A stretch of DNA of 64,000 nucleotides from Candidatus Zixiibacteriota bacterium (GCA_029860345.1 JAOUBJ010000002.1:1-64000), one strand, 5' to 3'. Shown: positions 48,901 to 64,000, counted from the stretch's first letter. The notes: generated by a model not told the origin, from the sequence alone. Numbers and translations: made by a program.

Positions 48901-50561
48901 GAGGAGTTGTAGATTTCAACTCCTGTCCCTTCACCTTCATAGCCGATGCTGTTAGAGAAGGTGGAATTAGTGACCTGAGTGGTGCCATTGGTGCCACTAA
49001 GGCTCAGGGCGTAAGCCTGGTTTTGGAAAAAATTACATTCATCTATCACGACGTTGCCGCCGTTGTCGGCACGTACTCCCCACCATTGATTGTTGCGAAT
49101 GTTGCAATTGGTAACAGTCGGACGGGCGCCGTTGGTGGCGTAGATGCCACCTTGCGTACACTGTTCGATTACACAATTCTCGATCGTCGGCCATGCGCTT
49201 TCGCACAGGATTGCACCGCTGCTGAAGGTTCCGTTGGTGCCGTTACGGATGGTGAAGCCATTCACAACCGTTCCCGCGCCGGTGTACAAGTCAAAGTAGA
49301 AGGCGCGGCCGGCATTCTGGCAATCGATGACTGTCGAGGCGGGCCCGCTCTCGGACCGAACCTGTATTGACTTGTCACCGAACCCGCTCAGATTGCGGTT
49401 ACCGGTCCCGGTGTAGGTGCCGGGGGCAACCAGTACTTCACCGCCGCGGAAGATAGGTATGGCCGATATAGCCGACTGGATGGTTGGAAACTCCGAGGGA
49501 ACCCGGTAAGGTCCATCGACCGCGAACTTATTGGCCTGAGACCAGCCGCTCCAATCTTCTGTCGGACCCCAGGCCGCTACCCGCCAATAGTAGGTGCCGT
49601 TTGGCATGTAAGCTGAATCGTAGCTGGTACCTTCGTACCATCCCTGCCAGACATTGGGGCTGGCAAAACTCGGGTCATCGTCGACCTGTAAATCATAGGC
49701 CACGGCACCGGCACTGGGTTGCCAATTGAAGGCAGGGTAGTGGGCTTCGGTGCTTGATCCGTCGCCGGGAGATATTAGAACCGGCACGGCCGGCGGGACG
49801 AGATCACCTTGGACAATCACCCGGACATAGTCAAGCGAGAAGGGATCGAAGAATGGTGAGACGTCGATAAATTGCATGTCAAATCGAGCATCAAGAATAC
49901 CATCAGCGATCAGAGCTGGACTGACGCCATAAGTAAAAACGCCTGATCCCCAAGCACCCTGATTCGGAATGGCGGCAAAGCCCGTAGCTTCAACTCCGTC
50001 CAGGTACAACCGGGTAGGACCGAGGCCGAAGTTGGACCAGGCGTTTTGCTGAAGTCCCGATACATCGATACTGATCCAGGCTGTGTCGACATTGGTAAAC
50101 ATTTGTGGATCGAAGCTAAATCGTAGCGTGAAATCGCTTTGAGAAAACGACTGGTAGTCGGTGTGTCTGGCATACGTGTCGTTTCTCTCAGCCGTCGTTC
50201 GATTGTCGAACAACCAGTTAAAATCGGGGTCGTTAGAAAACGGCAGGGTCGCTCCGTCGGGGTAATTGAACCCATAGCCGTAACCGTCGTTATCACCGAC
50301 CGTAATCCAGAGGCTGTATTTGGCCGCCGACAGGTGCCTGAGTTCAGTCTTGCTTTCGATGGCCAGGTCGGAATCCGGACCGAGCATTTCGACATCAAGC
50401 AGTTGATCGCTGGTTGGAGCGTATATGGCCGCACCTTCAAATTCAGGACGCGGACCGGCTGCTTGCACAAGGCTGGCTGAAGCCAGTGTCAGAACCAATC
50501 CGAGCGCAAGAAAGCCCATCTGAGACATTCGGTGAGATCGCATAAAGCGTTGTAAATCCAT
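45942..50561 (-). CDS. Large secreted beta-helix protein with type IX sorting tail
   Basis: 1,539 residues. The signal peptide is MGFLALGLVLTLASASLVQA after a short charged lead; the first Met is uncertain. A jelly-roll-like N-terminal part (to about 250) is followed by a fibronectin-III-like stretch (about 260-345, YDLQVDDDPSFASP, GTYYWRVAAWG). A right-handed parallel beta-helix lies at about 350-740 with Asn-rich turns (NCNIRNNQWWG, GCTFVNNAAD). Two BACON-like repeats follow (DDAINSPQIVPVTLT, DDALNSPQYVGVTLT), then Ig/cadherin-like and Big_5-like parts, a degenerate dockerin near 1302 (GDANDDGIVDERDV, DGDGSGVVDADDI) and a type IX sorting domain from about 1444 (YQNYPNPFNPFTTI). It is probably a surface carbohydrate-binding or adhesin-like protein; no lyase catalytic residues could be assigned. 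It is transcribed alone. Confidence 0.85.
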   Translation of the reverse strand: MDLQRFMRSHRMSQMGFLALGLVLTLASASLVQAAGPRPEFEGAAIYAPTSDQLLDVEMLGPDSDLAIESKTELRHLSAAKYSLWITVGDNDGYGYGFNYPDGATLPFSNDPDFNWLFDNRTTAERNDTYARHTDYQSFSQSDFTLRFSFDPQMFTNVDTAWISIDVSGLQQNAWSNFGLGPTRLYLDGVEATGFAAIPNQGAWGSGVFTYGVSPALIADGILDARFDMQFIDVSPFFDPFSLDYVRVIVQGDLVPPAVPVLISPGDGSSTEAHYPAFNWQPSAGAVAYDLQVDDDPSFASPNVWQGWYEGTSYDSAYMPNGTYYWRVAAWGPTEDWSGWSQANKFAVDGPYRVPSEFPTIQSAISAIPIFRGGEVLVAPGTYTGTGNRNLSGFGDKSIQVRSESGPASTVIDCQNAGRAFYFDLYTGAGTVVNGFTIRNGTNGTFSSGAILCESAWPTIENCVIEQCTQGGIYATNGARPTVTNCNIRNNQWWGVRADNGGNVVIDECNFFQNQAYALSLSGTNGTTQVTNSTFSNSIGYEGEGTGVEIYNSSTPSFAHCTFQNNEGHGLYTWNSSVILNVCTFSSNGSQWDYGGGMYISGNSGSNLITVDDCTLESNQGYYGGGIYASGVDVDILGGLFDGNTAQYRGGAVYLSWSSTASAVGCTFVNNAADTGSAFYIESDASISKDRTGQTQALAGAGISRCLLAFATEGQAIYLESFAWIEIGCTDIYGNAGGDWTGSLASQLGLNGNISADPLFCNAANDDYQVTANSPVADVNNPCATIGAYDIGCGAMELSLSPTPLTFAAAADGPNPAAQNLQISNLGGSILYWTLTKKSGWLNVNLLAGVAPSSVLVSVDKGGLPGGIYYDTLVVVGDDAINSPQIVPVTLTLTAGEISVAPSLLNFESQYGANSSPDPQVLTISNSGSGMLSCQLSHGQSWLQLSESQFSVNPPRDVSVSVDPIGLLPGIYEDTIVIMSDDALNSPQYVGVTLTITDVDPPTLLVGSSSHPITGSDPLMIAVNVGDNLSITFTATTPLPGVVPLLGIFDPPSGSVFLPVSDGVSRFEWSPVPELGGTHYITVTADDDYQTTDLVVGITINSIPQFTSDFSDENLIEAEPLTFVVTATDNDAIQPTIDWNGVPSTATFDNGTPGTGTLRFTPDHNDVDATYQAEFTASDGIASVTESLVITVSNRQLTVQAMQPSPGAADDILVSDSIQIQFNEGIDQTTLSANLVFSSAKGTTLGYRYIADQRHLLIGAASGYLESEDTIGITLNPGLHDLAGYSLDQLYVETFATGTAVYPGDANDDGIVDERDVLPLGLFWGNTGPARNEIPDLNWAMAPGHIAFGGERWSPAGGAYADGDGSGVVDADDICGITENWSSSHTVSDNDKAPPDNLAASLATQDQTVLTALYEAVVTCPEGAGKTAMREMLQALLNSPATEAALPTDVELYQNYPNPFNPFTTIRFYLPSSGQVTLSIYNMLGQRVATLISATVKAGYSEADWDGADQGGSPVASGIYLYRLETSNFSETKRMLLLK

Positions 50562-51001: not shown

Positions 51002-51520
51002 TTAGTCCATCAGGATGACAATGTCCTCAGCGATTTCAGCCTTGAACGGCTGGTCGGCCGGTATTTCACCCTGTCCACCCTTGATAAACAGGCCGAAAAT
51101 CAACAGCCAGGAGACCAGCTTTTTGCTCTTTCCAGCCGCCGAAATCTCGTCAACGGCTTTAAGCATGATTTTTTTGTCCCCTTCAGCCTCGTAGCTTGAG
51201 CCCGGTTCCAACTCCAACAGTTCGAGTTCAATACTACCCGGCTTGCCACCTCGTCCGGCCGGCGTTACCGACTTAACCCGCGCCGATCCGGAGGTACCTT
51301 CCTTAACCACCGTGAAGCCGCCAAAAGTAATCGGCGAGCTGAGACGGATAGGAACCAGATCGCCGGGAGCAACGTACTTGGACGAGACGTCCTGGCTGAA
51401 TACAATTTCGACGGCATGGCCGGCGGGAAGTTCGATGTCGGCGGAGACATTTCCAGTGACAGCTACAATTAGGGCCAGGGCCATCAAGAGACTGCTTAGT
51501 ATGCTGCGAATTCCTTGCAT
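51002..51520 (-). CDS. Small secreted protein at the end of the type VI operon
   Basis: 172 residues with a signal peptide (ILSSLLMALALIVAVTGNVSA) and no lipobox. The mature part looks all-beta: HAVEIVFSQDVSSKYVAPGD, IRLSSPITFGGFTVVKEGT, SARVKSVTPAGRGGKPGSIE, and an end GEIPADQPFKAEIAEDIVIL. A moderately hydrophobic segment (LVSWLLIFGLFI) occurs at about 137-148. Not recognised as a named family. It lies 37 bases after the TssM-like gene on the same strand, so it probably belongs to the operon. In a canonical type VI system the outer-membrane partner of TssM is the lipoprotein TssJ; this could fill a similar periplasmic place, but there is no sequence evidence for that. Confidence 0.6.
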   Translation of the reverse strand: MQGIRSILSSLLMALALIVAVTGNVSADIELPAGHAVEIVFSQDVSSKYVAPGDLVPIRLSSPITFGGFTVVKEGTSGSARVKSVTPAGRGGKPGSIELELLELEPGSSYEAEGDKKIMLKAVDEISAAGKSKKLVSWLLIFGLFIKGGQGEIPADQPFKAEIAEDIVILMD

Positions 51521-51557
51521 AGGTCACTCCTTATTAGACTTCATCGAGACCCCGAAC

Positions 51558-53768
51558 TTACCATTTCGGCAGACGTTTTTTTGGGTCTTCTTCGAAGCTA
51601 AAACTGATTTGCTGACCGGACGCGGCCATGGTAATGATCTCTGTCATCTCGACTATGGCGAAATCACTGGTCAACTCGGCCAGCGCTTTGTATGATTCGC
51701 CCCAGCTTTCATCGCTGCCGCCGTGGTCTTTTTCGTGGAGAGCGATGAAAATGCGGTCACCCTTTTTCCAGATAATACTGGCCGGGCGGTTGATCCTGAT
51801 CTGTTGCGGACGCGGCCATTCACCCGCTTTGCCTGCGCCTTCGATTTTGATATGAACGTGATGACCGGGGGGACAGTTGGACAGCGTAAAACGATACTCC
51901 CGGTCTTTGTCAAACGCCTTGGCATCTTTCAGATATTGATCGATCCTTGCCACGTCCTCCTGGCGATCGGGGTCGGAAGCCAATTGACCACGGTAGCTTC
52001 GGAGTTTCTTGACCGCTGTGCCCAGAAGGTACTCGGCGTCGGTTCGTTCTGACAGTTGGGCCGAGAAACTATCGAACTCGCCGGTCGTCTTCTGATGAAC
52101 GACCTCGCGCTTCTGCTCAAGTTCACGCGAGTTGACGATATCCAGCATGGCCTGCCCAAGCTGCTTGATCTCGGCCGATGGTTTGGGCGTCATTGTCGGA
52201 TAGACATCGACCTGCCGGACAATCGCATTCCAGGCATCAGCCGACTGGTTCTGCACCAGTGCAGCTTTGAACAGACCCCAAAGTTCGATGGCGCGGCTAC
52301 TGGGGGAGAGCAGCGATGAGCCTTCGGGTGATTGCGCGTAGTGCGCGATGGCTGTCTCAATCGAGACCACCTGCTCAGTCGACACCACAGTGTCACCGGT
52401 TGCGGCAGGTTTGGGCCAACGGGTGGAGTCGCGCACGATATTTGTCAGATCACCGATTGACTTGGCCAGCCGGGAAAGATCGGCTGCTTCTGAAATGTTC
52501 TTGTAGAAGTCGTGCAGGTATCCGGCCTGTACGGCGTGGTCGGGAAATACCCAGGTGGCAAACTTTGATCGCGCAAACGAATTGTATTGATCGCGAAGGT
52601 CATTGCGTGCTTTCTTTGGTATCTCGGCTACAGTGATTCTCCCCTCCCAATGGCGGTCCTCAAGCGCCGAGATGCGATTGAGCTTCAGGTGGAAGTTGTA
52701 CAGATGCGGTACCGACCAGACGACGGCAAACAGGATGCTCAGAGTGACCACCCACCGCGACAGTTTGCGGAATGCTTTCAGTCGTCGGTTGCGTATGATC
52801 GACTTAAGAAGCCAATAGAACGGTTCACGCACACCCACCGGTTGCATCTTGTCGGGTGGTTTGTAAAGTGACCGGCCGACATCGGTGCCTATCTTGACCG
52901 GCGCCACGCCGGTGTTTGACGAGAAGAACACCTGAAAATCGAGCGTCCGTCCAACGATCAGTTTCAGAAAATCCTTCAGCTTGACCAGCACATCGCGCAC
53001 CGAACCGGCCCAGGCAGAATTGGAGGCGATTCGGTTGGAAGAGAGAATTTTCTCCAGGAAAATTTCGTAGTCTTCGGCCAGAAAGTGCTCCTGATCGGCT
53101 GAGACCAGAACAGTCTGACCCTCCCCGGAGAATCCGGGCAGCACGTCGGCTTTGGTGACCACCAGGGCGACCGGTATGGGCAGCCGACCACCGCCCGGCG
53201 CTAAGGCTTCGCACATATTAACAAACGAGGCTACGTGCGCCTGACACTGCAACTCGGCGCCGAGCATCTTGGGATCGAAGAAGAACAAAATCCCCTGACA
53301 GCCCTGCATAAAGTCTTTGACCTTTTCGGCCAGCTCGTGGTGCTCCTGAATGGAGACTGCTTTGCCATTGTAGTCGAAGGCCACCACCGGAATATTCTTC
53401 GCACGATCCAGAATAGTATTGAATTGCAGAATCTTCTCGCCGGGTGTGGCCGGGGGAAACTTCTTGTCTTCTCTGAGGTCGACCATAGTACCGGCCGTGT
53501 CCGATGTGCCCAATCCCCAGATGGCGCGATAGTTGGACAGGAACTCGCCGGCCGTGGGGTTGTCGGTAACCGAAAGACCGAGGTCCTTGGATACTTTGCA
53601 TTCTTCGTTGAGAACCGTGAAGTAAACTGTCTTGCCGGAATTGGCGTGACCGAAAACACCGATCCGCATTCCGGGCGGCCACTCAATACCGGACGAAGCT
53701 GCCGGGGCGCCTCCTTTGGGAACGTGTTTGGCGCCCTTCTTGCCCAGCTTTAGTATCTTCTTAAACAC
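51558..53768 (-). CDS. TssM-like membrane GTPase, short form
   Basis: 736 residues. A G domain occupies about 34-300: P-loop GHANSGKT at residues 40-47, a DxxG-like FDYNGK, and LVVTKAD in the place of the NKxD base-recognition motif. A single membrane segment (WVVTLSILFAVVWSVPHLYNF) is at about 339-360, with some 375 residues after it. Canonical TssM/IcmF is over 1,100 residues with three membrane segments, so this is much shorter and differently arranged. Assignment rests on the GTPase-membrane-periplasm order and on the operon. The N-terminal P-loop context is also like that of bacterial double-GTPase families, an alternative origin. Its stop lies 37 bases before the small secreted protein. 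Confidence 0.6.
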   Translation of the reverse strand: MFKKILKLGKKGAKHVPKGGAPAASSGIEWPPGMRIGVFGHANSGKTVYFTVLNEECKVSKDLGLSVTDNPTAGEFLSNYRAIWGLGTSDTAGTMVDLREDKKFPPATPGEKILQFNTILDRAKNIPVVAFDYNGKAVSIQEHHELAEKVKDFMQGCQGILFFFDPKMLGAELQCQAHVASFVNMCEALAPGGGRLPIPVALVVTKADVLPGFSGEGQTVLVSADQEHFLAEDYEIFLEKILSSNRIASNSAWAGSVRDVLVKLKDFLKLIVGRTLDFQVFFSSNTGVAPVKIGTDVGRSLYKPPDKMQPVGVREPFYWLLKSIIRNRRLKAFRKLSRWVVTLSILFAVVWSVPHLYNFHLKLNRISALEDRHWEGRITVAEIPKKARNDLRDQYNSFARSKFATWVFPDHAVQAGYLHDFYKNISEAADLSRLAKSIGDLTNIVRDSTRWPKPAATGDTVVSTEQVVSIETAIAHYAQSPEGSSLLSPSSRAIELWGLFKAALVQNQSADAWNAIVRQVDVYPTMTPKPSAEIKQLGQAMLDIVNSRELEQKREVVHQKTTGEFDSFSAQLSERTDAEYLLGTAVKKLRSYRGQLASDPDRQEDVARIDQYLKDAKAFDKDREYRFTLSNCPPGHHVHIKIEGAGKAGEWPRPQQIRINRPASIIWKKGDRIFIALHEKDHGGSDESWGESYKALAELTSDFAIVEMTEIITMAASGQQISFSFEEDPKKRLPKW

Positions 53769-53782
53769 AGTTCAACCGTTCC

Positions 53783-54724
53783 TCATCCGCCGCCCTTGAG
53801 TTCGGTAAGGTGGGTGCGCATTTTTTCAAGTTTGTCCTGCCGGTATTGACTCCACTTGAGCGGCACGTACAAAGCCAGCAACAGAAACAGTATGATGACA
53901 ACTCCATAGAACCCATAGGCAGGATTACGTTGCGACAGCGACATCCTGAAATAGCGCGAGCTTGAGAACACACCCGTGAGTTTCCCGCCCAGTCCACCCA
54001 GGAAGGCCCCCACCCGAGTCCAGAAACCGCCGGACTTGACCACGTATCGCCACTGCTTGAGATGATAATCAAAGAGCGGACTGCGGTCGGCCAGTTTGGC
54101 AAAACCTTCTATCCGGTGAACATGAAACTCAAGGCTGGACCGATCCTGCATCAGTTCTTTACCCATCTGGAGTCTTCTGCGAGCCAGTTCCAGGAACTTC
54201 AAAGGATCGGCCAGGGCGTTAAAGGCCTCCGGGCTGATCGACGTTTGCAGCGGCTTACCAAAGGTATTCATATACCGCGCCATCTCACCAAGGAAAAACA
54301 TACATAGCGGATAGTTGTTGTTCATCGACCCATCGCGAAACAACAGCGGTGTCAGATGTTTTTCAATGAACGGTACATCCTGTTTTACGGCGCGCAGGCC
54401 GCGAACGTATGTGTAGGCGCGGTTGGACTGGCCGTCGATATCGGCCTCGGCTTCGAAAAATGCAACCAACACCTGTACCGTAGTCTGGCGGAGATCGGAA
54501 CTTGTCAGGGGTGCCTGTTTGATTTTCTCAAGCAGGAACTGATCCAGTTCCACCGCCTTATCACGTTGCTGACGCAACGCCTGAAAAACGGCGCCGATGC
54601 CTGAGTAGGTTTGCAGAAACGCTTCCGTTGCAAATTGCTGCGGGTTGGTTTCGAAGTTCTCCAGGTATCTGAAGAGGTCCTCGACATAAGATTTGACAGC
54701 GAGTCGGTTATCCATCACTACCAT
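53783..54724 (-). CDS. TssL/DotU-like protein with C-terminal membrane segment
   Basis: 313 residues. The first ~265 residues are helical and cytoplasmic in character (AVKSYVEDLFRYLENF, VQVLVAFFEAEADIDG, PLCMFFLGEMARYMNTFG). One membrane segment (FYGVVIILFLLLALYVPL) is at about 274-293, followed by a short charged tail. TssL of type VI systems has this order: a helical cytoplasmic domain, then one C-terminal membrane helix. Sequence similarity to TssL is not obvious to the eye, so the call is positional: it lies between tssK and the TssM-like gene with gaps of 1 and 14 bases. No peptidoglycan-binding domain is present. Confidence 0.5.
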   Translation of the reverse strand: MVVMDNRLAVKSYVEDLFRYLENFETNPQQFATEAFLQTYSGIGAVFQALRQQRDKAVELDQFLLEKIKQAPLTSSDLRQTTVQVLVAFFEAEADIDGQSNRAYTYVRGLRAVKQDVPFIEKHLTPLLFRDGSMNNNYPLCMFFLGEMARYMNTFGKPLQTSISPEAFNALADPLKFLELARRRLQMGKELMQDRSSLEFHVHRIEGFAKLADRSPLFDYHLKQWRYVVKSGGFWTRVGAFLGGLGGKLTGVFSSSRYFRMSLSQRNPAYGFYGVVIILFLLLALYVPLKWSQYRQDKLEKMRTHLTELKGGG

Positions 54725-54725
54725 C

Positions 54726-56174
54726 CTATATGGCGTAAACGATCAAGTCCATTTTTCCAAGAGCCGCAAACCGGTCAACATCGCCCGCCCCACGGAAAAC
54801 CAGAGTGATCTGGCTGACCGAGGGCGACCTCAACATATCCTGCGGATGCAGTGCCACTTTATTACCATAGGTCACGACATCAATCTCCACCGGGTCGGTC
54901 TCACCCAGACCGCGAGCTTCGTTAAGCCCCAGGCGCACCTGCATGCTGGTCCATCGGGCGGTGTCGACAAGGTCCTTGTTCAAGAGCACCACGGTATCTG
55001 TCACGGCGGCCGGGTTGGCGATGTCGATTGTCAGGTAAGTGAGTTCCCCCACTTGCTCGGTGTGACAACTGCCGTAGTCGACCACGCGGTAAGTCTGGCC
55101 ATGGTAGGTCAGGGTATCGGTGGCTACCGCCTGTTCGCCCAGTTGCTCTTTCTTGACTTGAGCCAGATAGCCGAACACGCCGCGTACCTGGGTGAGGATA
55201 TCGTCGATAGCCCGAATATGGCCACCGAGGTCGTTGTGGTTGTAATCGGCCAGAAGGAAGGCATCTACATGCGACATGAACCGACCGACATCGGAGTTCA
55301 TCTCCTTGACAAAGAACCGCTCGTTGAGCAGGTCTTTCAGACCCGGTTGCAGGTTCAAGAGAGTCGTGAACGACCTGAACAGTTTCTTGAAAAACATGAC
55401 CAGTTGGATCGGATGGCCGGCATTTTTCCCCACAATGTAATCGTCCAGAGTGGAGCTGAGATGGTAGGCAAACTGATATATGGTATCCTTGAACGCCTGC
55501 TGCAAATCCGTCTTCTCGCCGGACAACGCACCCCCCGAGCAGACTGCCATGTAGGCGCGCGAGGACAACGATAAGAGGTTTTCCAGACGGTTACGATAAT
55601 CCAGCGCCTTGGCCGTCAGTTGTTCGTCGGCATACAAAGAAATGCAGGGTGGATAGTAATACTCCGCCGGGGCGACATCGGATGAGCCTACCGTGAGCGA
55701 TGCGATTTGGAAGTACTGTCCGGTCGGCAGGTCGGGCGGTGAGCCCAAAGCCAGTTTGTAGTTACCGGCCAGGTAGGGCAGACGGGGCAGGTCATCCTGC
55801 GGGTCCGGCTCGCCGACCGGTTGCCGGACGCTGGTATCGATTCCGATGTAAACCGGCACTTCGTTCGATCCAACATCACTTTCGGCCCGAACTTGTTCCC
55901 TGGTAGCTTCGTTAATCTCGATAACGCCGCCGTCGGGGGTGATGGCTTGGCATCTGACAACCTCGACTCGCAAACGGTTTCCCGATACGGAAAGGTTCAA
56001 GCTCAAAGCCGGCTGGCCGGAGAAAGACTTGCGCACCAGGCCATAACGATCACCCACGTCAAGGGCATACCAGCGGGCCAGTTCTTCAAAGTACTTTTCC
56101 TGATCTTTGAGATGCTGTTGCGTTATCAGCATCCCATCCTGCCAGTTTACCGAATATAAGTTCAAGTCAGTCAT
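54726..56174 (-). CDS. tssK: Type VI secretion baseplate protein TssK
   Basis: 482 residues, within the usual range. The N-terminal motif NWQDGMLITQQHLKDQEKYF matches the TssK signature (W-x-E/D-G-M-x2-x-x-Q-H). Further along are RLPYLAGNYKLALG and FQIASLTVGSS, then a helical part (about 215-345), then a C-terminal beta domain (GELTYLTIDI, VALHPQDMLRSPSVSQITLV). TssK links the baseplate wedges to the membrane complex and is a hallmark of type VI systems, absent from phage tails and extracellular contractile systems. It sits 67 bases after the TssG-like gene and one base before the TssL-like gene. Confidence 0.85.
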   Translation of the reverse strand: MTDLNLYSVNWQDGMLITQQHLKDQEKYFEELARWYALDVGDRYGLVRKSFSGQPALSLNLSVSGNRLRVEVVRCQAITPDGGVIEINEATREQVRAESDVGSNEVPVYIGIDTSVRQPVGEPDPQDDLPRLPYLAGNYKLALGSPPDLPTGQYFQIASLTVGSSDVAPAEYYYPPCISLYADEQLTAKALDYRNRLENLLSLSSRAYMAVCSGGALSGEKTDLQQAFKDTIYQFAYHLSSTLDDYIVGKNAGHPIQLVMFFKKLFRSFTTLLNLQPGLKDLLNERFFVKEMNSDVGRFMSHVDAFLLADYNHNDLGGHIRAIDDILTQVRGVFGYLAQVKKEQLGEQAVATDTLTYHGQTYRVVDYGSCHTEQVGELTYLTIDIANPAAVTDTVVLLNKDLVDTARWTSMQVRLGLNEARGLGETDPVEIDVVTYGNKVALHPQDMLRSPSVSQITLVFRGAGDVDRFAALGKMDLIVYAI

Positions 56175-56241
56175 TGTTTTGCCTTTGGCTTATCGGGGAA
56201 ATCTATGTCTGAGATCATCGTGTGTCAAGGTTATATTCCCG

Positions 56242-57186
56242 TCATGCTCGCAACTGGGTGGGATGGCGGTCTTTTGTTACAAAGGCCGAGTAACCAAGCA
56301 GGCTTCCGGCTTTTGATGAACCGAGTTCCAAGTCGCCTCCGGCTACCTTAATGCGGACAATACAATCCAGATTGGTCGGCATGCAGATACTCAGGATCCA
56401 CTCCAGTTTCCGACGCTGCGGTTTACCCGGCAGCAGTTCGCTCGCCTCGTCGGCAGGAACGCCGCTGATTGTCAGTTGGTAGCTGGAGTCACATTCACTG
56501 AACGAGCGGCCGATTATCAGATCTTCCCCAAGACGGCTGGAGTCCTCTCCCAGGCGACAACGAATACCTTCCGGGATGTCGTACCGGGCGGCAACGTTCT
56601 CTTCGAAATCAAATGTGTAACCGAACAAGTAGCGCAGCACTCCGGCTACGAATTGAGGACTGCCCGCCCACATGTGGAACCCCGGCATGATAGCCGACCA
56701 CAGAAGAGGTTCGCGCACACTGTCGGGCGCTTCAGGCAACACGAACTCGAACAGCTTCAGAAACCTAAGCAGGTAATCCAGGTTTACCAAAGCCAGTGAA
56801 TACTCCAGTTTCTCGTGGGTGGCGACGGCGTTGTAGCGTGCCACCGAACCGTCGAACGGTGCCATCAAATGACGAGCATCATTCTCCCAACCATCGCCGC
56901 GCGCCTGACCGGAATGCCACCCGTAAAAGAATTGATATGGTAGAAAGTCAACGGCCGACACCATACCGACATCAAGGACAACCGGCGTGTCGGTATCGAG
57001 CGGCTGTCCGGCGGCCGGCTGTTGACTGAGAATCTCTCCCAGATAGTTGCGGTGTTCACCCACCGCCCGGATGGATACGTTGTGGATATCAACACCGAGT
57101 TTCATCAACAGGGTCAAGGCTGTGGCATAGTGGAAGGGGTGGTGCCGGTCGGTCAATTGGGGCATGCTGGCACGATCTGAGTTCAT
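56242..57186 (-). CDS. TssG-like baseplate protein with N-terminal PASTA-like segment
   Basis: 314 residues. Its place after tssF (4-base ATGA overlap) and before tssK fits TssG. The last 110 residues agree with the TssG C-terminal part: RLGEDLIIGRSFSE, then SGVPADEASELLPG, then RRKLEWILSICMPTNLD and LLGYSAFV. Residues about 16-75 instead look like a PASTA domain: ATALTLLMKLG, then GEILSQQPAAGQPLDTDTPV followed by VLDVG. PASTA modules are typically found in kinases and penicillin-binding proteins outside the cytoplasm, so one inside a cytoplasmic baseplate protein is unexpected. The middle part is not recognised. Start chosen at 57186; a second Met at codon 8 is possible. Confidence 0.65.
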   Translation of the reverse strand: MNSDRASMPQLTDRHHPFHYATALTLLMKLGVDIHNVSIRAVGEHRNYLGEILSQQPAAGQPLDTDTPVVLDVGMVSAVDFLPYQFFYGWHSGQARGDGWENDARHLMAPFDGSVARYNAVATHEKLEYSLALVNLDYLLRFLKLFEFVLPEAPDSVREPLLWSAIMPGFHMWAGSPQFVAGVLRYLFGYTFDFEENVAARYDIPEGIRCRLGEDSSRLGEDLIIGRSFSECDSSYQLTISGVPADEASELLPGKPQRRKLEWILSICMPTNLDCIVRIKVAGGDLELGSSKAGSLLGYSAFVTKDRHPTQLRA

Positions 57187-58847
57187 CTTAGATCGATCTC
57201 GACGGCAAACTGGGTGTTGACCGGAGTACGCGCTTTAAGAAAGCTCGCCAGGCGATGTTCTAACAGGCCGGTCTCTTCATCCGAATGAAAGTCATCTTTG
57301 TTGGCGGCAACGGTGACCACGATGCACCTTCGGACACCACGCTCGAATCGTTGCACACCATTATGGCACGTCACATTCTGAATACGTGGATCGAACGATT
57401 TTGTCCACTTGGCAATCTCGTCGAAAGTCAAGGCACGGTCCCTGCTGCGCAGACGTGAAGATGCCTCGGAGATCACTTGTTCTTCCGTCTTGGCCGGAAT
57501 GGCCCCACTGACCGAGATTATGTTTAGGGCCTCATCGATGCCGGGATGGTTCTCATACAATTCGGTAATACTTCCGGCCGAAATCCCATTGGCCTCCACG
57601 CCGGCCGTGATGGTGTAAGCTACTTTGATAGCGTCCGGCGGGTTATCGATCTGTGTCGTGAAATCGAACCACAGGGCAAGACGATCGGAGCGCTCCTCCA
57701 GCGAATAGTGGCCTAACTCGCGATCAGACAGCACCTCATGGGTGGGGACATATTCGCGATTATTGGAATCGATCACGCTGGTGACCTCGAAAATGGTGCT
57801 TATACTCTCAGGCAACTCCAGTTCGACCAGGCGGCTGCCGCCGGTATGTTTGAACGATGTCTGCTCGGTCTTGTTGACAACCACAAAACAGTCGAAGTGA
57901 ATTCCCAGCGGCTCCAGAAGTTTGGCTCGGTCGCCACCCGGCGGAAGATCGATGCGAATCCACCAGAGGTTATCCTCGGTCGGTGGCTCAATGCCGTATT
58001 TGGCAATCAAACTCGCCAGAGTCTCGCTGGGTGGACCGGCATCCCAGGTTGTACTGAATTCCTCCGGAAGAACGGCAAAACTGTCGGCCAACGGCTGGAA
58101 CAAATCAGCGGTCGACCTGAGTCCGCCCCAGTCAAGAGCGTTGCCGTTGGTTTGATACAACTCCTCAAGCGTACAACCGAGGCCGGGGCAGAAGCTGCTA
58201 TCTTCGTAAAACGATCCGAAGTGCGTTCCCGGGTACCAGCGTCCCCAGCGAATCTGCTTGAGCGCCGCCGGGTCGCCGTTCAGGAAGGCAACAGCCTTGC
58301 TCAGGTGAGCGCTGGGTCCATCATATTCTATAGCTATAAAAAGTTGGTCATTGCCACCATTGGTAGTATCGGGCTGGGCTGAGGCCGCCTGGGACGGCGA
58401 GTCCGAGGATAGTTTGACCAGCTTGTCACCGCTCTTGAGGTAGACGTGCTTGACCAGCGCTTTCAGCAGTTTCTCCGTTCGCAAAGGGGAGAAGAAAAAG
58501 GTCTGACCACCTTCTCGTTTTTCTTTATGGAAGAAGCGTGTGTGCGGGTCCACCTCAACGGCCGGATCGGACGGTTGGCATTTCATTACGGTGAAAGCAG
58601 GTACCGGCCAGCGACGGCATTCCGGCGCCAGTGAGCGTATCAACGATGCTTTGGCCACCTCCCAGGTGCTGCCGACTTTGCGATCAATGTTGGCCAGTTG
58701 GTTCGCGTACATCTGCAATAGAATCCGCAGGATAGGATCCATGCGCTCCGATGACTCCGGCACTTCCGGGTTGAAGGCGCGCAACTCGCGGTGCATCTGG
58801 GCGAAAATAGTGTCGGCCGATCTAGGTTCGTGAGTATCCATGGTCAA
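57183..58847 (-). CDS. tssF: Type VI secretion baseplate protein TssF
   Basis: 554 residues, within the TssF range. The N-terminus has the expected helical start with RMDPILRILLQMYANQLANI, then SLIRSLAPECRRWPVPAF and the beta-rich part with DPHTRFFHKEKREGG. The C-terminal section resembles baseplate J/gp6-like proteins (VSGAIPAKTEEQVISEASSR, RDRALTFDEIAKWTKSFDP, FLKARTPVNTQFAVEID). TssF and TssG form the wedge with TssE and TssK. It overlaps the TssG-like gene by four bases and follows tssE by 22. Confidence 0.85.
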   Translation of the reverse strand: MTMDTHEPRSADTIFAQMHRELRAFNPEVPESSERMDPILRILLQMYANQLANIDRKVGSTWEVAKASLIRSLAPECRRWPVPAFTVMKCQPSDPAVEVDPHTRFFHKEKREGGQTFFFSPLRTEKLLKALVKHVYLKSGDKLVKLSSDSPSQAASAQPDTTNGGNDQLFIAIEYDGPSAHLSKAVAFLNGDPAALKQIRWGRWYPGTHFGSFYEDSSFCPGLGCTLEELYQTNGNALDWGGLRSTADLFQPLADSFAVLPEEFSTTWDAGPPSETLASLIAKYGIEPPTEDNLWWIRIDLPPGGDRAKLLEPLGIHFDCFVVVNKTEQTSFKHTGGSRLVELELPESISTIFEVTSVIDSNNREYVPTHEVLSDRELGHYSLEERSDRLALWFDFTTQIDNPPDAIKVAYTITAGVEANGISAGSITELYENHPGIDEALNIISVSGAIPAKTEEQVISEASSRLRSRDRALTFDEIAKWTKSFDPRIQNVTCHNGVQRFERGVRRCIVVTVAANKDDFHSDEETGLLEHRLASFLKARTPVNTQFAVEIDLR

Positions 58848-58869
58848 TTTATCGCTTCAGGCCCGACTT

Positions 58870-59244
58870 TTAACCCAGGCCATAGGAGGCTTCGAATTTC
58901 AGTTCCTCCTTGCCGTCCTTGAAATTCCCGGACACCTTTACGGTGATGCCAAGGATGTGCGGGGCCGACTCCGTGGCTAGTCCGAACGACACGGTGACGT
59001 TGTAGAGTCGCTTTTCAAAACTGTCGATGGCGTTTCGCAAACTGGCTCGTACATCGGCTTTGTTGGCAGCGTACAAGTCGGCGTATTCTTTATCCCAGAG
59101 ATCGCAACCGAAGTCCGGGCTGAAGCCTATCGAGCCGATACGGGTGCTGATAATCAGCCCCACCGAGTGTCTGATTGAATCGTCTAAGTCCGATCGGGCC
59201 AGGTAGCCGTCGCGCATTACCAGGGGGAGGGACAAATATTCCAT
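58870..59244 (-). CDS. tssE: Type VI secretion baseplate protein TssE (gp25-like)
   Basis: 124 residues, typical of gp25-like proteins. SIRHSVGLIISTRIGSIGFS holds the conserved helix with the family's R-x-G-S-x-x-x-x-P-x-F-G pattern, completed by PDFGCDLWDKEY. The C-terminal part is a beta strand set (ITVKVSGNFKDGKEELKFEA). It starts the sheath at the baseplate. Its ATG overlaps the TGA of vgrG (TGATG), so the two are probably translated together. Confidence 0.85.
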   Translation of the reverse strand: MEYLSLPLVMRDGYLARSDLDDSIRHSVGLIISTRIGSIGFSPDFGCDLWDKEYADLYAANKADVRASLRNAIDSFEKRLYNVTVSFGLATESAPHILGITVKVSGNFKDGKEELKFEASYGLG

Positions 59245-61031
59245 CAGTTTATCTTAACGAGACCGCCCTTGATTTCTGTCATGGCATCACCCTGGACCTT
59301 AGCAGTCGGCGCCTTGATGCTGATCTGGGCGCCACCTTTGGATTCGTGGTTGATGCTGCCTTCGCTTGAGAAATTTCCACCCGCCTTGATTTTTGTATCC
59401 ATCGTGCTCTCGGCTTCCAGACCGCCGCCAGACTTGAGCGTAATATCGCCGGTTGTGCTTTCGAGACTGATGTTGGCGCCTTTGAGGCTGATGTCACCGT
59501 CGGTCTCGATGGTGATCTTGGGGCCGTCGGCGCTGAGTGTGATGGTGTTGCCGGACGGTTGCGTGATACAGATGGTCTCGCTGCCGTCAGCATCGTGGAA
59601 GTAAATCTCGTTGCCGCTCTTGGTGCGGAAGAGCTTCAGATCGTTCTGAGCGGCATCAAATCCGGCATCGTGGTCGTTCGGCGGTTTGTCGACGCCGTTA
59701 TACAGAGCGCCGATCACCAGCGGACGATCCGGATCACCGTGTTCGAAAGCTATCAACACCTCGTCATCGATCTCCGGCAGGCAAAAGAATCCCTTTTCAC
59801 TCCCGGCGTGCGGCGCCATTACCCGTAGCCAGCGCTCAGGTTCGGCCGCAGTGGTTCCGTCGCTCCATTCCAACTTGACCTTCACGCGACCCAGGTTCTC
59901 GGGGTCTTCAGTGCTGGTGACGAGCGCGCTCTGAATATCGGTTAACGGATTGCGTTGGTGTCTTTTCGTCGGGTAGGCGGTCTCCAGCGGCGTGCAGGTG
60001 AAACTGTTGGTGTATTCACCTCTGATATATCGATGGCCGACGGACTTGATCCAGTGTGGTCCGTGGAAATCGCTGGGCATACCGGATATCTTGACGCAGG
60101 CGCCGATCTTAAGTCTGGGATCACGCGACCGTCCCGAACAATGCACCATGCGCCCAACCGATGCTTCACGCGCACTCTCAATTGATTTGTCCAACGACGA
60201 TTGACTGTCCGGTTTGAGCCCGGAAACAAAACTGCCTTCCGGGTACAGGTTCTTGGAAGCATCGTGCGACAACTTGGCCAGACCCGAGATGGACGTTTGT
60301 AGCGAGCCGGAAGTCTCGCCGTCGTACACTTCCTTTCTGACTTGATCATAAGACTGCGCGGCGAATTTCTCTGTCCGGGTTCCGAGTCCCATTTTGAACT
60401 CGAACAGCATCTGACGAAAAGTCAACTCCACGTCACTGCTTGAGGCGGCGGCTTTGCCGACCGTGAACTCGGAGCCGTCGTAATATGCAAACAGACCGCT
60501 GAGTCCGGCCAGGCGCATGACAAACTGGAAGTCACTTTCGCGGTACTGAACGCAGTGGGCCAACTGGGCCTCGGTCGACGCGACGGAGCCGACGGTAATG
60601 GGATGGTTGTTCAGCACTTGAGTGATGATTTCACTGGCCTTCATGTCATGATACAGTTTGTTGCGCAGCGGACCGTCCATGACATTCGTCGGGCTGTGGG
60701 CTGTGATGGTGATCGAGTTTATCATGTCGACCGTGTTTTCATGGCGGACTTCGGTAACCACCCCGATGAATTCCATGGCTGTAATGGGACGGGGTTCGTC
60801 AGCGACCTCGTCCGTCTCCACCTTCAACGAAATCGTCTCACCGAGGAAGCCCGAGAACTCCTGCGTCCCGGAGAATTCGCTCAGGTCCGCCTCTGCACCC
60901 AGGCCGTGCAGCTCGATTTTAAGAACATGGTGCCGATCAACATACTGGTCCAGTTTGATACTGGAGACAGACGACAGGAACTCACGGTCGATCTCTTGGT
61001 CGGCAACTTTGATCTTAAAATCGTAGGCCAT
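59244..61031 (-). CDS. vgrG: Type VI secretion spike protein VgrG
   Basis: 595 residues. gp27-like region first (about 1-340: ISMKVETD-type strands, YRESDFQFVMRLAGLSGLFA, GRMVHCSGRSRDPRLKIGAC). The gp5-like OB fold follows (ALVTSTEDPENLGRVKVKLEW, then HAGSEKGFFCLPEIDDEVLI and HGDPDRPLVIGALYN). A repetitive triple-helix needle runs from about 480 to the end (ITLSADGPKITIETDGDISL, MTEIKGGLVKIN). There is no C-terminal effector extension. No PAAR-like tip gene lies next to it. It sits between hcp (83 bases) and tssE (overlap). Confidence 0.95.
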   Translation of the reverse strand: MAYDFKIKVADQEIDREFLSSVSSIKLDQYVDRHHVLKIELHGLGAEADLSEFSGTQEFSGFLGETISLKVETDEVADEPRPITAMEFIGVVTEVRHENTVDMINSITITAHSPTNVMDGPLRNKLYHDMKASEIITQVLNNHPITVGSVASTEAQLAHCVQYRESDFQFVMRLAGLSGLFAYYDGSEFTVGKAAASSSDVELTFRQMLFEFKMGLGTRTEKFAAQSYDQVRKEVYDGETSGSLQTSISGLAKLSHDASKNLYPEGSFVSGLKPDSQSSLDKSIESAREASVGRMVHCSGRSRDPRLKIGACVKISGMPSDFHGPHWIKSVGHRYIRGEYTNSFTCTPLETAYPTKRHQRNPLTDIQSALVTSTEDPENLGRVKVKLEWSDGTTAAEPERWLRVMAPHAGSEKGFFCLPEIDDEVLIAFEHGDPDRPLVIGALYNGVDKPPNDHDAGFDAAQNDLKLFRTKSGNEIYFHDADGSETICITQPSGNTITLSADGPKITIETDGDISLKGANISLESTTGDITLKSGGGLEAESTMDTKIKAGGNFSSEGSINHESKGGAQISIKAPTAKVQGDAMTEIKGGLVKIN

Positions 61032-61114
61032 GTTGCTTGGTATCCTCGCGGTTCCAGGTCTTCAGTCGGTGCCGGGCAGGCAATTATACCCGCCCGACAC
61101 ACTACAACAGTGTC

Positions 61115-61525
61115 TTATTCCTGCCAACGGTTGTCGACTTCGGCGTCGCCGACGACCACCTTGTGGCACGAAATCTCGAAATAGATAAATATCTGATCCT
61201 GCGGACGATCTTTGACGTGCGGGATGGTCTCGACAAACTTGGTCACGAAACCTTCCTCCCAGGTCAATTCTTTCATGATGGCGTCATCAGGATTATGGAA
61301 GGTGACCTTGCCGGCCTTCCAGTTCGGTTTGCTCGAATCCATCGCCCAACGAGCGATGTCAACGTTGCCCTCAGGGTCACTCTCGATGGTAACCTTGATC
61401 GTTCCGGCGTGAGCACGGTCCGACGGGCGACCGGTCTCGTCGCGGGCGGTGTACAATTCGTATGATATCTCGTAAACGTTGTCATACTTCACACCGTCGA
61501 TTTCCAAAAATGGTCTTCTGGCCAT
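61115..61525 (-). CDS. hcp: Type VI secretion tube protein Hcp (TssD)
   Basis: 136 residues, with AAGGAGAAGG before the ATG. The sequence is of the Bacteroidetes-like tube type: YELYTARDETGRPSDRAHAG, then TIKVTIESDPEGNVDIARWA, then FHNPDDAIMKELTWEEGFVT and IFIYFEISCHKVVVGDAEV. It should form stacked hexameric rings inside the sheath. The strong ribosome-binding site fits a highly made subunit. It follows tssC by 68 bases. Confidence 0.85.
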   Translation of the reverse strand: MARRPFLEIDGVKYDNVYEISYELYTARDETGRPSDRAHAGTIKVTIESDPEGNVDIARWAMDSSKPNWKAGKVTFHNPDDAIMKELTWEEGFVTKFVETIPHVKDRPQDQIFIYFEISCHKVVVGDAEVDNRWQE

Positions 61526-61593
61526 GGCCTTCTCCTTTTAGCCTCAGCGTTTTCGTTACAGTATAGTTGTTTGCTTACTTTCTGTTCAGGTTC

Positions 61594-63015
61594 CTACTTA
61601 TCCTTCACATTGGTAGCGTCGCCTTCGTTCCAGGCTTCGAATTCGATGACAAATGTACGCGCCGGATACTTCGGGTTCAAAGCGACTTTGATGCCCACTT
61701 CCTGACGTTTGCGCATCTCTTCGTCTGCGAAAATCTGCACGTCATAGTCCTGAAGGATATTGTCACCACCCGAAATCGCTTTCATGAACTTGTCAATGTC
61801 CTTCCGCATGGTATCGATAAACTTCTGATCAATCACCGAGAAGGTCTGTTTGTTGAGATATTGACGCAAGTTCTTGTAAACATAGTCATAGGTGCGACGG
61901 ATCGAATAGACGTCAAATGTCTCCTTTGTGAACAGGGTCGAAGCACCCATGGCTACGGCTGAACCTTCGAAGTCAACCATAGGGATCAGGCCTTTCTCGA
62001 CGATCTTGGAAGCATCGACCTGATTGGCCCGGAAACGTATGTACTTGGCTTCAGCAACTTTGCCATACTTGAAGCCGGCCGACGGTTGCTGCATGCCAGT
62101 CGTGGTATCACCTTTGTACATCATACCGGCCACAGCCGCCGAGGGTGGTATCCACATGTCATCGTCTTCATACTGGTTGGCGCCACGCGCCTGCAGATAG
62201 TTGGCGAAGACGGATACATACTGCTTGTAGTCGTCGATACCGGACAAGTTGGCGTAGTTCGGGTCGTCAAGCATCTCCATGATATCTTCAAAAGTCTCAA
62301 AGTTCGGCAGGTCGGTCATGACATGCACCTTATTGGGGAGTCCCAACTGGCGAGCGACCGTGTCGATATTCTCCACACTGCCAAGGTAACCGGGGACAAC
62401 AGCCATTGAGAAACAGTCTTTAATGCCCCACTCACGATACAAGTCGGCCACCGCCTTGGCCACTTCCTCGAACTTGTCTTTGTCGTCCGGATCGGTCAGT
62501 TCCTCAGCCGAGACATTGGCGAAATAGACGTTGACCTTTTCGTCCGGCTCCTGCTGGGCATTGGCAAAAAACTTGTCAATGGCCCGATAGGTGGTTTCCA
62601 GTTCGCGGCTGGACTGATGCACCTTTTTCATGTTCTTGTCGAGGTTGGTTTCAAGCTTGGTCGCCTGTTCGTTCAGCGACTTGCGGACCTCATCCAGATT
62701 GTCACTCTGACTGAGATACTGCACCCACAATTTCAACCTCTCACCCAGGAGTTTGCGTTGCACCGCGAACTCTTTTTTGGTCAGGAACTCTTTGCGCTGA
62801 AAGTCCTTCTTGGGATCAAGCCATTCGATACCCCGAACCAGATCACCGTCGGCTGTTTTGAACGACGGCAGGAGATTAGCCAGTTTCTTGAAATCCCCGA
62901 AAGAATCGCTCAACAATGACGCGAAATCTTCATCGGAGATCTTTTCCGCCGCGGCCGGCTGCGCCGGTGCTGCTTCGGCTGCCTGCGGTTGAGCTTGTTT
63001 TTCTTCTTCACCCAT
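61594..63015 (-). CDS. tssC: Type VI secretion sheath large subunit TssC
   Basis: 473 residues. An Ala/Gln/Pro-rich front (residues 1-25) precedes a helical segment, FLTKKEFAVQRKLLGERLKL, of the kind found in Bacteroidetes TssC. The sheath core follows: WGIKDCFSMAVVPGYLG, MWIPPSAAVAGMMYKGD, GLIPMVDFEGSAVAMGAST, SIRRTYDYVYKNLRQYLNKQ, and an end PARTFVIEFEAWNEGD. It pairs with TssB to make the contractile sheath. The gap to tssB is 24 bases. Confidence 0.92.
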   Translation of the reverse strand: MGEEEKQAQPQAAEAAPAQPAAAEKISDEDFASLLSDSFGDFKKLANLLPSFKTADGDLVRGIEWLDPKKDFQRKEFLTKKEFAVQRKLLGERLKLWVQYLSQSDNLDEVRKSLNEQATKLETNLDKNMKKVHQSSRELETTYRAIDKFFANAQQEPDEKVNVYFANVSAEELTDPDDKDKFEEVAKAVADLYREWGIKDCFSMAVVPGYLGSVENIDTVARQLGLPNKVHVMTDLPNFETFEDIMEMLDDPNYANLSGIDDYKQYVSVFANYLQARGANQYEDDDMWIPPSAAVAGMMYKGDTTTGMQQPSAGFKYGKVAEAKYIRFRANQVDASKIVEKGLIPMVDFEGSAVAMGASTLFTKETFDVYSIRRTYDYVYKNLRQYLNKQTFSVIDQKFIDTMRKDIDKFMKAISGGDNILQDYDVQIFADEEMRKRQEVGIKVALNPKYPARTFVIEFEAWNEGDATNVKDK

Positions 63016-63039
63016 TTATTCATTTCCTCGTTTTGTCAT

Positions 63040-63480
63040 CTATTCGGTGAGCAGGTCAATGTAATAGTTGGCCGCCTTCAAAAGCGCTTCCTTCTTTTCT
63101 TTTTCAGCCAGCGTCTTCTTGAGTGCGTTGTTCTTCTTGAGCTGCTTGTCGAGATCGGCCATCATCTCCTTCGAGTAGTACGTCTTCTGGAGGAAGTCGT
63201 TCTTTTCGATGAGTTCCTTGGAAGTGAAGTCTTTCATCCCTTTGACCTCAAACTCAGCGTTGACCGGTTCGCCTTCGGCCGACTCAAGTTCAGCCGAAAA
63301 TCCGGGACGGAATTTCTCAAACACTTCTTTTAGGTTATTGCAGCGGGTTGGGGAGACATCGGCGTCCTCTTCGGCATTAAGACGCGCCATGTAGAGCATC
63401 TTGTTGGAAGGGAGCAATTCAACAGGTATCGAATCGTCTTTCTTGATCCTTTCCGTTGCTCCGAGAATAAACTTGGCCAT
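63040..63480 (-). CDS. tssB: Type VI secretion sheath small subunit TssB
   Basis: 146 residues. The N-terminal strands (MAKFILGATERIKKDDSIPV) and the central VKGMKDFTSKELIEKNDFLQ fit TssB, whose F-x-x-M-x-D-F motif is clear. The C-terminal half is helical and lysine-rich (LDKQLKKNNALKKTLAEKEK), the part that in TssB presents a recognition helix to ClpV or packs with TssC. It lies 36 bases after clpV. Confidence 0.85.
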   Translation of the reverse strand: MAKFILGATERIKKDDSIPVELLPSNKMLYMARLNAEEDADVSPTRCNNLKEVFEKFRPGFSAELESAEGEPVNAEFEVKGMKDFTSKELIEKNDFLQKTYYSKEMMADLDKQLKKNNALKKTLAEKEKKEALLKAANYYIDLLTE

Positions 63481-63516
63481 TCAATCCTCCGTTTTGCTAA
63501 TTCATTTTGCCTTAGT

Positions 63517-64000
63517 CTAAGAAGTCACCGTAAAGACGAAGGCATCATCTTTGACATCGATTGTCACATTGTCACCGGCCGAAACACAGCCGGTGATTAT
63601 ATCTACTGATAGCTTGTTTACAATTTCCTGTTCAATGATGCGTTGGATCGGTCGCGCACCCAGTTCGATAGTGTAGCCGTCCACAGCCAGCTTGTGCCTC
63701 GCTTCGTCCGACAGGGTTGCCGTTATGTTCTGATCCTCCAGCAGCTTGCACAGGCCTTTGAATTCTAAACCGGCGATCTTCTCGACTTGTTCCTGGGTGA
63801 ACGAGTGAAAGACAATTATATCCGTCAGCCGGTTGAGGAACTCAGGACGGAACTTGGTGAACAGAAAGCCTCGCACCTCCTCCATGTCGACCTCGCGCCC
63901 TTCCCGGTCGGCATCCAGGATTTTGTCGGCGGCATAGTTGGACGTGAGCACAACCACACAGTTGGAAAAGTCGACCGTGCGGTTCTGGCCATCGGTCAGG
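63517..64000 (-). CDS. clpV: ClpV/ClpB-type AAA+ ATPase, C-terminal part (cut by window edge)
   Basis: Only the last 160 codons are inside the window; the frame continues past 64000. LTDGQNRTVDFSNCVVVLTS is the sensor-1 region of the second ATPase ring, followed by FLFTKFRPEFLNRLTDIIVF and, later, the sensor-2 motif GARPIQRIIEQEI. These are shared by ClpB, ClpC and ClpV. Its place immediately before tssB-tssC favours ClpV (TssH), which recycles contracted sheaths, but the distinguishing N-terminal domain is out of view. Confidence 0.8.
   Translation of the reverse strand, partial: LTDGQNRTVDFSNCVVVLTSNYAADKILDADREGREVDMEEVRGFLFTKFRPEFLNRLTDIIVFHSFTQEQVEKIAGLEFKGLCKLLEDQNITATLSDEARHKLAVDGYTIELGARPIQRIIEQEIVNKLSVDIITGCVSAGDNVTIDVKDDAFVFTVTS

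Follow-up and report, generated by a model that had tools for sequence, protein, structure and literature searches.

A 13-gene operon in Candidatus Zixiibacteriota (candidate division GN15/Zixibacteria) probably encodes a complete contractile type VI secretion system (T6SS) that belongs to a separate lineage, sister to T6SS-iii, that is anchored by three proteins designated here p313, p736 and p172, and whose GTPase, p736, would have been recruited from a system of the DO-GTPase/GAP1 type. A more far-reaching formulation, on which our judgment is evenly balanced, holds that these proteins make up a T6SS membrane complex of a third kind that is independent of both TssJLM and TssNOPQR, its inner-membrane core being a DO-GTPase (with GAP1 in the early-branching clades) captured from a bacterial conflict (immunity-like) system, and that the ClpV of this machine is permanently split. 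In the papers found, T6SSs of Zixibacteria are mentioned only in passing.

The operon and its place among T6SS lineages

The stretch of DNA analysed, referred to below as the window, comprises 64,000 nucleotides (G000:C2:1-64000) of a 4.76 Mb genome in 35 contigs which, like all genomes compared here, is an assembly from an uncultured organism. The operon is complete and lies on the minus strand with its 5' end past position 64,000; in the order of transcription it encodes the ClpV N-half, the ClpV C-half, TssB, TssC, Hcp, VgrG, TssE, TssF, TssG, TssK, p313, p736 and p172. By coordinates, the features are:

51002..51520, minus strand: p172, small secreted protein with a signal peptide and without a lipobox; final gene of the operon, conserved after p736
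51558..53768, minus strand: p736, membrane GTPase of the DO-GTPase2 type in the TssM slot (Pfam/HHalign, AF2 model)
53783..54724, minus strand: p313, helical cytoplasmic domain plus one C-terminal transmembrane segment (TM), in the TssL slot (AF2, co-occurrence with TssC)
54726..56174, minus strand: TssK, baseplate adaptor (weak NCBIfam/Pfam match plus profile comparison)
56242..57186, minus strand: TssG, baseplate (PF06996, 1.7e-17; profile matches to T6SS-i and T6SS-iii)
57183..58847, minus strand: TssF, baseplate, iii-like (HHalign 99.7% to TssF-iii, 5.5e-26 as a single comparison, 499 columns)
58870..59244, minus strand: TssE, gp25-like (PF04965, 4.3e-13)
59244..61031, minus strand: VgrG/TssI, spike (Pfam/NCBIfam plus profile comparison)
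61115..61525, minus strand: Hcp/TssD, tube, Bacteroidota kind (PF17642, 1.9e-20; no Hcp-i match)
61594..63015, minus strand: TssC, sheath, Bacteroidota kind (PF17541, 5.6e-75)
63040..63480, minus strand: TssB, sheath (HHalign 99.7% to TssB-iii)
63517..64608, minus strand, in the window to 64000 (L001:1517-2608): ClpV C-terminal half (second AAA+ module), 363 aa
G000:C2:64605-66068, minus strand, outside the window (L001:2605-4068): ClpV N-terminal half (first AAA+ module), 487 aa

The original prediction, made from the window, had placed sheath, tube, spike and baseplate genes on one strand of an unusual phylum with small gaps between them, and had called Hcp and TssC Bacteroidetes-like; all of this holds, with intergenic distances of -4 to +83 bases and with the Pfam matches given above, and the genes that remained to be sought past position 64,000 turned out to be tssH (ClpV), as two ORFs, and, further upstream, a PAAR/DcrB cargo cluster. 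The T6SS core set is present in its entirety (TssB/C sheath, Hcp tube, VgrG spike, TssE/F/G/K baseplate and ClpV), and the order of the 13 genes is kept in about 20 loci of Candidatus Zixiibacteriota as well as in Krumholzibacteriota.

Two neighboring regions deserve mention. The likely cargo cluster upstream of clpV (L001:4243-16808, corresponding to G000:C2:66243-78808) contains a PAAR protein bearing a long extension (427 aa), a DcrB/Eag-type chaperone, a beta-propeller protein, a protein of 1320 aa that includes an OmpA domain, and several proteins assigned to no family, and relatives of the extended PAAR protein sit upstream of clpV in many related genomes. Just downstream of the operon (45942-50561, minus strand), a secreted protein of 1539 aa is encoded that contains repeats and a dockerin-like stretch and carries a FlgD/type-9-like sorting region at its C terminus; it is not conserved together with the operon.

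Pfam and NCBIfam assign TssC, Hcp, VgrG, TssE and TssG and recognize TssK weakly, while TssF is clear by profile-profile comparison only. Where do these proteins belong among the known T6SS types? Profiles based on about 20 relatives were set against collections of T6SS-i and T6SS-iii proteins drawn from annotated plasmids (the E-values of profile comparisons quoted in this text are those of single comparisons). HHalign favored T6SS-iii over T6SS-i for TssB (99.7% vs 88%), TssC (100 vs 5.5), Hcp (99.2 vs 0.1) and TssF (99.7 vs 16), and T6SS-iii was also clearly ahead for TssE, VgrG and TssK, so that seven proteins have their best matches there; no TssA was found in the operon. The TssG profile matches both sets, and for TssG and TssK the i and iii profiles barely match one another directly. 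When TssC was compared with plasmid-encoded proteins, the matches were Bacteroidota T6SSs plus four Deinococcus phage-like sheaths, and no others. That the sheath lies far from T6SS-i might be taken to mean that the operon encodes an extracellular or cytoplasmic phage-tail-like injection device and not an envelope-anchored T6SS, but ClpV, TssK, TssG and Hcp are all present and match T6SS families, and two integral membrane proteins are encoded within the operon, which leaves this reading barely credible.

A tree of five genes (TssB, TssC, TssI, TssE and TssK), in which T6SS-iii and T6SS-i were represented by five loci each, recovered the lineage (93/96), T6SS-iii (100/99) and a clade joining the two against T6SS-i (100/100); under the present sampling it thus places the lineage as sister to T6SS-iii and outside the Bacteroidota clade. 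Together with the profiles, it supports a separate T6SS lineage beside T6SS-iii rather than membership in it. The earlier alternative of an intermediate or a separate subtype is therefore retained in its second form, the locus falling beside and not inside a known subtype; the first finds little support, given that tail and baseplate stand on the iii side and that a bridge between i and iii is provided by the profiles of TssG and TssK alone. Within the tree, the Krumholzibacteriota loci L091 and L092 nest among those of Zixiibacteriota, which suggests either transfer or mis-binned contigs.

Proteins in the TssL and TssM positions

Directly after TssK, i.e. in the gene positions of TssL and TssM, come p313 and p736, corresponding to the predicted helical protein at the TssL position and to the predicted short GTPase with one membrane segment, respectively. 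p313 is helical with a single membrane segment near its C terminus (residues 271-289; AF2 pLDDT 84), a topology that it shares with TssL. HHalign against DotU (TssL) gave 0.4%, and neither a DotU nor a TssN profile matched it; a PDB fold search returned nothing below E 0.2 and no fold match among the 50 matches listed, a PDB sequence search yielded only coiled-coil noise, and no relatives were seen in viral contigs. The third protein, p172, belongs to no Pfam family; its place behind p736 is conserved in main-clade and Krumholzibacteriota loci. Its identification as TssJ was rejected, as no TssJ profile matched and a lipobox-like pattern occurred in just 2 of 31 sequences; it is a candidate for a periplasmic or outer-membrane part.

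About half of the approximately 130 Zixiibacteriota genomes searched carry the system. TssC was found in 65 of them, p736 in 65 of 133 and p313 in 63 of 130 (62 of these with TssC), with joint presence in 62-63 genomes (Fisher p about 1e-31); the exceptions are mostly incomplete assemblies. In three genomes (G079, G115 and G116; loci L037, L051 and L052) p736 is unlinked from the remaining operon and yet kept. In the latter two, a PAAR gene lies close downstream of the unlinked p736.

The known membrane complexes were sought in the same genomes. No operon protein matched TssN-R profiles, DotU or full-length IcmF. The Pfam model of TssN, which picks up a known TssN at 3e-67, found none in 130 genomes, and DotU is absent from the genome of the window and from 64 of the 65 carriers of the system. 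DotU does occur in 11 genomes, ten of them without an iii-like TssC, and the examined ones among the DotU loci are of the ordinary T6SS-i kind, encoding TssL and a 1100-aa TssM. The remaining genome, G084, carries both the Zixiibacteriota-type system and a canonical T6SS-i with TssLM (L141, L142). With DotU and TssN so distributed, no membrane complex of either known kind turned up for this system, which supports the predicted non-canonical membrane complex, one that by sequence is neither TssJLM nor TssNOPQR. Could the real complex be encoded elsewhere, with p313, p736 and p172 as accessory or regulatory proteins? Membrane complex genes of T6SS-iii can be split off (PMC10781749), and p736 itself is unlinked in the three genomes just named; against this stand the distribution of TssN and DotU and the fact that genomes with TssC hardly ever lack p313 or p736, and we regard the idea as improbable.

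TssK itself may carry the imprint of a different partner. Its residues 11-359 align to TssK-iii and 17-207 to TssK-i, whereas the final 120 residues, conserved in the lineage, match neither, as would be expected if they bound a different membrane partner.

The Zixiibacteriota system thus differs from T6SS-iii of Bacteroidota in having p313, p736 and p172 in place of TssN, in its split ClpV and in its compact single operon. With T6SS-i it has in common the K-L-M gene order, the membrane topology of the two proteins in the L and M positions, and matches in TssG and a portion of TssK; its Hcp and TssC, by contrast, do not match those of T6SS-i, no DotU, TssJ or full TssM was found for it, and its GTPase protein is much shorter than TssM, with one TM.

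The GTPase p736 and its relatives

p736 comprises 736 residues with a P-loop GTPase domain, one membrane segment (336-354) and a C-terminal half, predicted to be periplasmic, that is helical and then folds into a beta-sandwich (AF2 pLDDT 84.5). Its G1 (GHANSGKT), G3 (DYNG) and G4 (TKAD) motifs are conserved, and nucleotide binding is therefore to be expected. The DO-GTPase2 family (PF19993) matched all 42 homologues of p736, several above the gathering score and many near or under it (the p736 of the window reached 23.6 bits, with a cut-off of 27); the same search also picks up FtsY, weakly. In HHalign, p736 matched Planctomycetota DO-GTPase2 at 98.8% (4e-17) over 158 GTPase columns, a comparison with two sequences (L111 and L112), as against 48-87% for TssM, confined to the G4 region (75% over 55 columns), and 11-13% for a control set made up mostly of FtsY. 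The two Planctomycetota proteins have the same GTPase-TM-helical-beta layout as p736. They are encoded outside any T6SS (L111:9917-12118 and L112:6029-9835), and no Planctomycetota GTPase of this kind was found on plasmids. A PDB sequence search with p736 gave nothing except P-loop noise, and a fold search only generic TRAFAC GTPases, a domain that masks the C-terminal half. In sequence, p736 resembles DO-GTPase2 more than TssM, and its nearest relatives are the DO-GTPase2 proteins of Planctomycetota.

The genes next to p736 point in the same direction. In DO-GTPase/GAP1 conflict systems, GAP1 typically lies directly downstream of the GTPase (PMC7159879). In divergent clades of the T6SS described here (L054, L055, L056, L057, L058 and L060; two clades), a GAP1-N2-like gene directly follows p736; all six proteins match GAP1-N2 (1e-4 to 9e-4), many near or under the Pfam gathering scores, and the family occurs in only 7 of 129 genomes, all of them carriers of this T6SS. 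The gene after DO-GTPase2 in Planctomycetota L112 is likewise GAP1-N2-like. p736 thus shares with the DO-GTPase/GAP1-N2 conflict systems (PMC7159879) its GTPase family, its GTPase-TM-extension layout and, in the divergent clades, its downstream neighbor; it differs in lying within a T6SS operon, where no FNIII component was noticed, and in that the main clade, including the genome of the window, has no GAP1, the slot after p736 being occupied by p172. In L059 (G055), of the same family as the genome of the window, a divergent 627-aa p736 has neither GAP1 nor p172 detected directly after it.

The most serious alternative, though one that we consider unlikely, is that p313 and p736 are a genuine TssL and a genuine TssM that have diverged to an extreme degree, the TssM being shortened and without the N-terminal membrane hairpin, and that they represent an ancestral K-L-M block later replaced by TssN-R in Bacteroidota. 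The K-L-M order is indeed that of T6SS-i loci of the same phylum; p313 has its single C-terminal TM and p736 the GTPase-TM-helical-beta layout; and p736 retains a TssM-like stretch (TKAD.L.GF, then FF.S.TG), with a weak match to IcmF-related_N in 26 of 42 homologues. However, p736 has no full-length TssM match, its HHalign match to TssM stays within G4 whereas that to DO-GTPase2 extends across the GTPase core, p313 has neither a profile nor a fold match to TssL, and a GAP1-N2-like protein is paired with p736 in the divergent clades. The DO-GTPase2 alignment, the GAP1-N2-like neighbors and the published GAP1 order make capture of a DO-GTPase module the best reading.

Divided ClpV, proposed architecture and significance

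ClpV (TssH) is encoded by two coupled ORFs with an ATGA overlap and one AAA+ module each. All 18 main-clade loci sampled are split at the same boundary, the halves meeting at ATGA or TAATG and the P-loops being intact; two genomes of a second clade (L057 and L148) have the split as well, while L054 and L060 have an unsplit ClpV of 813-816 aa. A sequencing error or recent pseudogene was rejected on the grounds of the shared split and the intact P-loops, and a programmed frameshift is not favored, as the downstream ORF starts on its own, its N-terminal residues are conserved and the bases preceding it are rich in purines. In trees of the ClpV halves, long branches were too numerous for the split to be dated. 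The two halves may work together as a two-piece hexamer.

By homology, the TssB/C sheath, the Hcp tube and the VgrG/PAAR spike would assemble on the TssE/F/G/K baseplate, and the two-piece ClpV would recycle the contracted sheath. Through the C-terminal portion of TssK that is peculiar to this lineage, the baseplate may dock on an envelope complex of p313, p736 and p172, to which p736 would contribute a cytoplasmic GTPase, one TM and a periplasmic stalk with a beta-sandwich. p313 and p736 would then perform the tasks of TssL and TssM, whose K-L-M gene order they share. The most likely source of the GTPase module is a membrane system of the DO-GTPase/GAP1 type, and one might speculate that the GTPase cycle gates assembly or firing.

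T6SS-iii has been reported as confined to Bacteroidota, and its membrane complex as a case of convergence with TssJLM whose origin is not known (PMC10781749). A differently anchored sister lineage makes it possible to ask which of the anchors is the ancestral one and how often anchors have been swapped. It also opens the question of whether the docking of contractile tails to membranes has repeatedly been solved with GTPases, suggests that secretion systems are connected, both physically and in evolution, with DO-GTPase conflict systems, and provides a natural example of a ClpV that is divided between the two ATPase rings.
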